This document shows, piece after piece, positions 7,134 through 44,683 of a stretch of DNA of 58,036 nucleotides. Below the pieces are notes generated by a model, which saw nothing but the letters and a program-made list of their open reading frames with translations, was not told where the DNA came from and searched no databases. The DNA comes from Gammaproteobacteria bacterium (lineage in GTDB: Bacteria > Pseudomonadota > Gammaproteobacteria > CAIRSR01). The number at the start of each line of letters is the position of its first letter. Positions within the stretch are counted from its first letter, which is position 1. The stretch is from NCBI GenBank assembly GCA_963575715.1, contig CAUYTW010000319.1:1-58036 (forward strand). Direction: 5' to 3'. The translations under genes and the position numbers were made by a program.

Positions 7134-8270
7134 TTATGGTGAGGCTGGAGTCGTCAGCTCGGGTTCTCCTGTTTTTGGCGTTTCTTGGGATTGTTCCACT
7201 GGAGATTTCGTATCCGTAAATTGATCAACCGCCTTAACCTGTTTTTTAATTAATTTATCCCGTTTCATCTCGATCAAATCTTTGACCATGAAATCTGCGA
7301 GTTTAAAGTAATACGGAGAAGTCGAAATTTTCAGAATATATTCCGTTCCTTTCGCCGGTTCCTTTCCATTTTCTGATTTATTTTCTTTTCCAGGCTCGGT
7401 ACTGACTTCCTGTTCAGGCTGGGAAAATACATAGATTTTCTGTTCTCCCGATTGAGTGGTCAACGATAGCGTGACGACGGGGGTATCTTGGCGGTATTTT
7501 GCTTGGTTTTCCTTGCCCAGTACCGAGTCGAAACTAAGATTCGCTAGTCGATTAACTAGGGTTTCGATTTCCTCGGTGTTAAGTTGTTCCTCGGGAGAAA
7601 GACCATCTACCTGCCATTTTCCTGGCTGTTTGATATCCTTGCCGCCTTTGTTGCCTTCCTGATTGCTTTCTTTGCTATCCATGGATCGTGCCAATTGCGT
7701 ATCTGGCAGGGATATTTTGATAATGTCATCCGCTTTAACATTTAAGGCAGTTTTATCCGCCCATTGGTTTGGATCGGTAGTCACTTCATGGATAGGAAAA
7801 TCTACATTATAGATGGCAGCTTCCTCGTTTGCGCGAATATGAACCTGGCGAAAACCGGAAGAATTTCCCAGCCAAAGCGTTGTCAGGAGTTTATCTCCCG
7901 TACTCAACATAACCTTATGCTCATAATCGGCAGGGCTGACCTTGAAACGTCTAATCGCCGTCGCCGTAGTCGAAACGGGAAGACGTTTGCGTAATCTTGC
8001 CATTCGCTCAAGGAATCCATCCACCTTAACCGTAAAAGCGGAAAAATCGCCCAGCGCCGGCAGCGACCAGGCATTCCCGCGACGTTCTACTACCAAGGGT
8101 ACCTTTTTTGGTTGTTCAATGGTAATACGATCCACTGCCTTGACTTCAAAATTGATTAGCGGCTCGCTACTGGCTACGCCACTTACTCCCGTGGTGGTGA
8201 TTCCGAAAAATACCGCCAGAAGTAGCTGTACCGCCAATATCACACCCAATAAACTAATAATTCGATTCAT
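7134..8270 (-). CDS. DUF4340 domain protein of a GldG-type ABC operon
   Basis: A 378-residue protein with one N-terminal membrane helix (about 5-25, LLGVILAVQLLLAVFFGI) and a large outer domain of the DUF4340 type, with two similar halves beginning FEVKAVDRITIEQP and later LSLTTQSGEQKIYVF. The C-terminus is a low-complexity Pro/Glu/Thr tail. It overlaps the end of the permease-GldG fusion gene by 4 bases, so it is the last gene of a three-gene operon. DUF4340 proteins regularly accompany GldG-like ABC exporters; substrate and role are unknown. It is probably an envelope-anchored accessory subunit. Confidence 0.75.
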   Translation of the reverse strand: MNRIISLLGVILAVQLLLAVFFGITTTGVSGVASSEPLINFEVKAVDRITIEQPKKVPLVVERRGNAWSLPALGDFSAFTVKVDGFLERMARLRKRLPVSTTATAIRRFKVSPADYEHKVMLSTGDKLLTTLWLGNSSGFRQVHIRANEEAAIYNVDFPIHEVTTDPNQWADKTALNVKADDIIKISLPDTQLARSMDSKESNQEGNKGGKDIKQPGKWQVDGLSPEEQLNTEEIETLVNRLANLSFDSVLGKENQAKYRQDTPVVTLSLTTQSGEQKIYVFSQPEQEVSTEPGKENKSENGKEPAKGTEYILKISTSPYYFKLADFMVKDLIEMKRDKLIKKQVKAVDQFTDTKSPVEQSQETPKTGEPELTTPASP

Positions 8271-43070: not shown

Positions 43071-44609
43071 ATGACCATACCGTCGGTGGAAGAAGAGCAA
43101 GGCATCCTCAATAAAACCCAACGGGCTGCCGAGCGGGGAGAAGTTTGGGGCCAATTCAACCTTGGCCTCGCCTACTATTATGGACGCGGTGTTGCTGAGG
43201 ATTTCGCCACAGCAGTTCACTGGTTCGGCCTGGCTGCGGCACGAGAAGATGCGGATGCCCAGTTTTACCTCGCCTTCATGAATGCCTACGGCCAAGGTGT
43301 GGCGCGCAACTACGCCGAGGCGGTCAAATGGTTTCGTCATGCCGCTGAACAGGGCCATACCGAAGCCCAATATCACCTGGCCTATTTATATCTGCATGGC
43401 TTGGGCGCTGCCAAAGACGAGGTGGATGCCCTCAAGTGGTTCCGGCGCTCGGCAGAACAAGGTTTTGCCGAGGCACAGTACCAACTTGCCCTGCTTTACC
43501 AGGCCGGGCTTGGAACCACGCGCGACCGCAACGAAGCCTCGCGCTGGCTCCAGCAGGCGGCGCAACGCGGTCATACCGAGGCCGCCTATCGGCTGGGTGA
43601 GATGTTCTTGAGTGGCCAAGGAGTATCCAGGAATGCTGGCGAGGCACTCGCCTGGTTTCGACAAGCAGGCACGGCAGGCCATACTCAAGCCCAGCTTCAA
43701 CTTGGTTTGATGTATGTTGCCGGTCAAGGCACCGTTTCCAACGCCACTGAGGCGGCGAACTGGTTCACCCGTGCGTCTGAACGTGGCAACGCCGAGGCTT
43801 CCTATCGCTTGGGGATGATGTATCTCAATGGGAATGGCGTGGAGGAAGACCCACGCCTTGCCTTACACTGGCTTCAGGCTGCTACTCTATCAGGTCACGC
43901 CGGCGCTCAGTATGAACTCGGTGCGCTTTACGCTGCGGGTCATAAGGTGACCAAGAATGAACAGGAAGCCGTCAAATGGTTTGGCCTAGCCGCTGAACAG
44001 GCATTGCCATCCGCTCAGTACGAACTCGGTGTTCGCTTGCTGGAAGGCCAGGGAGTGAACGCCGACCCTATCGCAGCGGTGCGTTGGTTGCACCAGGCGG
44101 CAAGTCAGGGCATCACCGATGCCCAGTATCAGATGGGACGGCTCTATCACCATGGCCGTGGTGTAGTTCAAGATCTGCGAGAAGCTCAGGAGTGGTATCA
44201 GAAAGCAGCCAGCGCCGACCACGTCGAGTCTCAATATGTGCTGGGTCTATTGCTCGCTGGTAGCGGGGGCGGAACAGTCGCCGATCCCACCCAGGCCATG
44301 AGTTGGCTCTATAAAGCGGCGACGGCGGGCCATGTCCATGCTCAATATGAACTAGCTATGTTGCTGCTTAATAATGCCACTGCTGCCCCGGACGACAATG
44401 AAGCAGTACGGTTATTGCGTTGCGCCGCCGATCATGACCACGCAGCCGCTCGGTATCGACTGGGGTTAATGTATCTAACCGGACGTGGTGTTATTCAAAA
44501 TAATCTTGAATGCCGACGCTGGATGGAGCGTTCGGCTGAATGTGGCGATCAACGTGCCCGTGAATTTCTCAGGCTTGTTCAGAGTGAAGGCTGGTTTGGT
44601 CCAGGGTGA
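43071..44609 (+). CDS. Sel1-repeat (TPR-like) protein
   Basis: A 512-residue protein made almost entirely of Sel1-like repeats; I count thirteen units of about 36 residues, each with an AxxQYxLG(x)MY, GxGVxxD and A(V)xWFxxAAxxGHxxAQ pattern. No signal peptide is visible, so a cytoplasmic or unconventionally exported scaffold is likely. Such proteins mediate protein contacts in stress and signalling pathways; the partner is unknown. It follows mepA closely and precedes rpoH, whose CIRCE operator begins 8 bases after its stop. Confidence 0.9.
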   Translation: MTIPSVEEEQGILNKTQRAAERGEVWGQFNLGLAYYYGRGVAEDFATAVHWFGLAAAREDADAQFYLAFMNAYGQGVARNYAEAVKWFRHAAEQGHTEAQYHLAYLYLHGLGAAKDEVDALKWFRRSAEQGFAEAQYQLALLYQAGLGTTRDRNEASRWLQQAAQRGHTEAAYRLGEMFLSGQGVSRNAGEALAWFRQAGTAGHTQAQLQLGLMYVAGQGTVSNATEAANWFTRASERGNAEASYRLGMMYLNGNGVEEDPRLALHWLQAATLSGHAGAQYELGALYAAGHKVTKNEQEAVKWFGLAAEQALPSAQYELGVRLLEGQGVNADPIAAVRWLHQAASQGITDAQYQMGRLYHHGRGVVQDLREAQEWYQKAASADHVESQYVLGLLLAGSGGGTVADPTQAMSWLYKAATAGHVHAQYELAMLLLNNATAAPDDNEAVRLLRCAADHDHAAARYRLGLMYLTGRGVIQNNLECRRWMERSAECGDQRAREFLRLVQSEGWFGPG

Positions 44610-44616
44610 TAGAAGA

Positions 44617-44643
44617 TTAGCACTCTCGACAGGAGAGTGCTAA
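44617..44643 (+). promoter_or_regulatory. CIRCE operator (HrcA binding site) upstream of rpoH
   Basis: TTAGCACTC and GAGTGCTAA are separated by exactly nine bases, which is the perfect CIRCE consensus recognised by the heat-shock repressor HrcA. A TAAAAT at 44641-44646 overlapping its right half could be the -10 box. It lies 41 bases upstream of the rpoH start. Confidence 0.93.
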
Positions 44644-44683
44644 AATGGAACAAATTTATGAAAAATAAAGGAGGAATATACCG

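Follow-up and report, generated by a model that had tools for sequence, protein, structure and literature searches.

A perfect CIRCE element before rpoH in a gammaproteobacterial genome, a common arrangement where hrcA is retained, and its predicted overlap with the rpoH promoter

Results

The window analysed here, a stretch of 58,036 nucleotides, carries an rpoH gene with a perfect CIRCE element in front of it and a Sel1-repeat protein gene upstream on the same strand (Table 1). The assignment of the product to RpoH is secure: it scores 410.6 bits against the TIGR02392 equivalog model (cut-off 323.1) and 427.8 bits against PRK06596. rpoH is followed by a short hemerythrin-like gene on the opposite strand and by gspH-gspI.

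Table 1 Features of the rpoH locus in the window.
Feature	Position	Strand	Basis
Sel1-repeat protein gene, ending 7 nt upstream of CIRCE	43071–44609	+	ORF, domain match
Perfect CIRCE, predicted HrcA binding site	44617–44643	+	Sequence match, genome scan
Predicted −35 hexamer TTAGCA in left CIRCE arm	44617–44622	+	18-bp spacer to −10; class-wide position
Predicted extended −10 TGC-TAAAAT overlapping right CIRCE arm (hexamer 44641–44646)	44638–44646	+	Conserved +3 T
Ribosome-binding site AAAGGAGGAA	44667–44676	+	Sequence
rpoH, sigma-32, 285 aa	44684–45541	+	TIGR02392 and PRK06596 above cut-off; Sigma70_r2 and r4

The element reads TTAGCACTC-TCGACAGGA-GAGTGCTAA, starts 67 nt from the rpoH ATG and agrees at 18/18 positions with the CIRCE consensus TTAGCACTC-N9-GAGTGCTAA, as the preliminary description of this DNA had claimed. 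It is the only match in the window at ≤3 mismatches (shuffle mean 0.01). From base composition, a perfect CIRCE is expected 6e-5 times per 3.7-Mb genome by chance, and 1.6e-9 times in any given 100 nt. The site is an inverted repeat, lies near the promoter of a heat-shock gene and shares its genome with hrcA: judged by its sequence it is a real operator, and it probably works as an HrcA site.

That description had also made its reading depend on the presence of hrcA, and the window genome (assembly G000, 99.4% complete) does encode HrcA. The gene has an intact frame, and its product matches PF01628 with 192 bits and the DNA-binding domain PF03444 with 26.4 bits (cut-off 21), and shows homology along 318 residues to 1stz, the structure of Thermotoga HrcA. 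It lies in a cluster hrcA-grpE-dnaK-dnaJ. A search of the whole genome at ≤3 mismatches returned exactly two CIRCE sites, the one at rpoH and one further site at groESL. The expectation that CIRCE controls groESL and hrcA-grpE-dnaK therefore holds here for groESL and fails for hrcA-grpE-dnaK: the best match upstream of hrcA has 7 mismatches, which rules out a CIRCE there, and the genome has no further site for these genes. Repeated GC-rich palindromes, CCCGCCCTAAAGGGCGGG, are present in the region upstream of this hrcA (about 7445–8050 of stretch L005) and may have taken the place of its usual operator.

Sigma-32-like promoters are distributed differently. dnaK has a complete match to the consensus CTTGAAA-N14-CCCCAT (13/13) at −101, and grpE has one of 11/13 at −100. 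At groES, hrcA, dnaJ and rpoH the matches reach at best 8–9/13, which is background (mode 9); autoregulation of RpoH through a sigma-32 promoter of its own gene, where the best match is 8/13, is thereby ruled out. Given the two-site CIRCE set and these sigma-32-like promoters, HrcA acting on groESL and rpoH and RpoH acting on grpE and dnaK look complementary.

The arrangement had been taken to be exceptional. Comparison of rpoH upstream regions shows instead that CIRCE is common there in β/γ-proteobacteria that keep hrcA. rpoH was found in 25 of 27 genomes that sample the taxonomic breadth of the class, and among these 25 CIRCE at ≤2 mismatches precedes rpoH in 16/17 genomes with hrcA versus 2/8 without (p = 0.001). 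These last two are G008, which is 62% complete, and G019, which is 97% complete with hrcA undetectable and carries an rpoH CIRCE with one mismatch (L177). Among 50 named β- and γ-proteobacterial genomes searched for hrcA, rpoH has a CIRCE at ≤3 mismatches in 27/33 with hrcA versus 2/17 without (Fisher p = 2e-6). Named lineages with the site include Methylocaldum, Dyella, Pseudoalteromonas luteoviolacea, Woeseiaceae, Nitrosomonas, Trinickia, Pandoraea, Herbaspirillum, Thiobacillus and Rugamonas; the 6 named hrcA-bearing genomes without it at this threshold include Xanthomonas pisi, where the site has drifted. The rpoH loci of Enterobacterales, Vibrio, Photobacterium, Aeromonas, Pseudomonas and Shewanella have no CIRCE, and hrcA was not found in those of their genomes that were searched. 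It is the Enterobacterales examined, E. coli among them, together with the Vibrio and Pseudomonas examined, that depart from the rule, because they are without HrcA; CIRCE before rpoH is the common state of β/γ-proteobacteria that retain hrcA.

Both other members of the window's family with a detected rpoH keep a perfect or near-perfect CIRCE before it in flanking DNA that has diverged. The closest relative (G001, 98% complete) has rpoE, hrcA and a CIRCE at groESL, but rpoH was not found there, probably owing to an assembly gap. In a draw across the phylum, only one of the rpoH loci fetched from more distant classes carried a CIRCE (L206 of G084, one mismatch, 42 nt before rpoH), so the site is rare among the distant classes sampled.

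Alignment of 64 distinct rpoH CIRCE sites revealed conservation that extends past the operator on the side of the gene only: T at +3 in 60/64 and A at +2 in 51/64. The extension is predicted to be an extended −10 element, TGC-TAANAT, that emerges from the right arm, and the left arm would supply a −35 hexamer, TTAGCA, 18 bp upstream of it. The window has exactly this pattern (TTAGCA-N18-TAAAAT with the preceding TG), and the AAT after the right arm recurs in the two further family members with a detected rpoH. We ruled out that the conserved AAT reflects a longer palindrome, as no such conservation is seen at the mirror positions −1 to −3 before the left arm. Since the promoter hexamers of the window match at 9/12 positions, and such matches are equally frequent in the shuffled region, the promoter claim rests on conservation across genomes. 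The groES sites are built differently: +3 is T in 3/18, versus 60/64 at rpoH (p = 3e-10), and these 18 sites follow a TTGACt-N17-TATTA promoter, with CIRCE starting where the −10 ends.

We consider it very probable, on these sequence grounds, that the CIRCE of the window works as an HrcA operator and lies within the rpoH promoter, which HrcA would occlude. An unlikely alternative is that transcripts reading through from the Sel1 gene or from an internal promoter are what HrcA acts on as a roadblock, or that CIRCE acts in their mRNA leader as a hairpin. The Sel1 gene, ending so close to CIRCE, is a possible origin of such transcripts; the element folds as RNA into an 11-bp hairpin; and at groESL and dnaK CIRCE classically lies in the leader. 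The groES sites here stand behind their promoter. However, the asymmetric conservation of +3 T and +2 A throughout the class fits a −10 with a start downstream of CIRCE, which would leave CIRCE outside the mRNA, and the Sel1 neighbour is not conserved in the family: the stretches fetched from G002 and G003 show no Sel1 gene next to rpoH, although the G003 stretch includes little upstream sequence.

Many relatives carry a second layer of promoter sequence. Of 63 rpoH CIRCE sites used here (a tandem pair being counted once), 28 have an exact GGAAC 14–18 nt before CIRCE, mostly at −16 (≤3 in 1000 shuffles). After N16 comes TCnnA, at the junction of left arm and spacer; the whole has the architecture of the sigma-E consensus, GGAACTT-N16-TCnnA, and resembles the sigma-E promoter P3 of E. 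coli rpoH. A full sigma-E-like match, NGAAC[CT]-N15-17-TCnnA, is present at 35/63 sites. Sought in further genomes as a test, a composite pattern, GGAAC-N11-CIRCE-NNT with 2 mismatches allowed, occurs in 149/369 genomes of the class and 112/271 genera, and the reversed control gave 0 matches; since the pattern tolerates mismatches and includes the CIRCE core, some of the 149 have an inexact GGAAC. Of 30 composite copies fetched, 29 precede rpoH, and the last lies on a short locus (1,598 nt) where no gene was identified.

This frequency would favour a sigma-E promoter overlapping CIRCE in the window too, with HrcA gating an envelope-stress input. We regard that as highly improbable: the GGAAC box is absent at this position upstream of rpoH in the window and in the two family members with rpoH, and RpoE was not detected in the window genome, though it is present in G001–G003. 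Loss of rpoE is insufficient to explain the missing box, as G002 and G003 have rpoE and lack the box as well. By its sequence, the window's family thus has the sigma-70-type overlap and is without the GGAAC box. Least credible of all is a relic or chance palindrome without present function: a few genomes do keep an rpoH CIRCE without detected hrcA, but the chance expectation is minute, the site is perfect or near-perfect in three family members whose flanks have diverged, and it is associated with hrcA across the class.

Discussion

The preliminary description had proposed that HrcA represses the sigma-32 regulon and so couples negative to positive heat-shock control. With HrcA present and a perfect operator on the likely rpoH promoter, repression of rpoH by HrcA remains the best reading. 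A CIRCE-bound HrcA dimer would, at normal temperature, cover both the −35 TTAGCA and the extended −10 TGC-TAAAAT and exclude RNA polymerase. In other bacteria HrcA keeps its fold only while GroE is free, and control of sigma-32 by DnaK is established. Heat or an overload of clients that titrates GroE could accordingly inactivate HrcA and derepress rpoH and groESL together; the new sigma-32 would then transcribe grpE and dnaK(J), and the dnaK(J) and grpE products, with DnaK limiting, would shut sigma-32 off again. HrcA would thus stand above sigma-32, joining a GroE-sensing loop to a DnaK-sensing one. We infer HrcA binding, occlusion and induction at rpoH, along with GroE dependence; this dependence and the control of sigma-32 by DnaK are carried over by analogy.

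Three known systems help to place this scheme. For Geobacter sulfurreducens, a perfect TTAGCACTC-N9-GAGTGCTAA at −51 of rpoH was predicted in 2004 (Rodionov et al. 2004, PMC545781, Table 8). That genome likewise has hrcA and a second CIRCE at groESL (PMC545781), but it belongs to a different class and also has a CIRCE at hrcA-grpE-dnaK-dnaJ, where the window genome has none. The Bacillus subtilis type of HrcA/CIRCE system, acting on groESL and hrcA-grpE-dnaK, shares the operator, the repressor family and the groESL target. Here, in contrast, the other target encodes a sigma factor, CIRCE is missing from the dnaK operon, and the operator is predicted to overlap the −35 to −10 region rather than to follow the −10. 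The rpoH gene of E. coli, with its sigma-70 promoters and the sigma-E promoter P3, is orthologous to that of the window, whereas E. coli lacks HrcA (control search) and the rpoH loci of Enterobacterales lack CIRCE.

The fusion of operator and promoter and its conservation across the class were not found described in the open-access papers searched, nor did any description of HrcA repressing rpoH match in that literature. Outside this scope lies the work of Permina and Gelfand in 2003, said to be the study most likely to have reported CIRCE before rpoH for β/γ-proteobacteria, and we claim no priority for the class-wide observation.

HrcA/CIRCE repression and sigma-32 activation are usually taught as two separate heat-shock strategies. 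In much of the β/γ-proteobacteria they would instead form one hierarchy in which HrcA gates rpoH, and E. coli would be the derived case. The window is an ordinary member of this scheme, its twist being that CIRCE stands at rpoH and groESL only. As to origins, we lean slightly towards an ancestral β/γ-proteobacterial rpoH region that was a compact module: an HrcA operator interlocked with a sigma-70-type extended −10 and, in many lineages, also with a sigma-E promoter that has its −10 at the junction of left arm and spacer. HrcA would then have been the master gate over housekeeping and envelope-stress input alike, and the E. coli scheme of sigma-E P3, sigma-70 promoters and control of sigma-32 translation and stability would have been derived after HrcA was lost.

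Several loci depart from the common form. Xanthomonadaceae/Lysobacteraceae (L033, L043, L058, L098, L249 and L250) have a drifted rpoH operator, TTAGCAGTC-N9-GACTGCTAA. In the L249 genome a variant resembling it also precedes groESL, which suggests that the specificity of HrcA has shifted along with its operators. In Pseudoalteromonas luteoviolacea (L042 of G045), the rpoH CIRCE is perfect and the HrcA-like match is very divergent (E 1.2e-11). Finally, L106 (G013) has a tandem pair of CIRCE-like sites at rpoH, 32 nt apart, with AAT after each.
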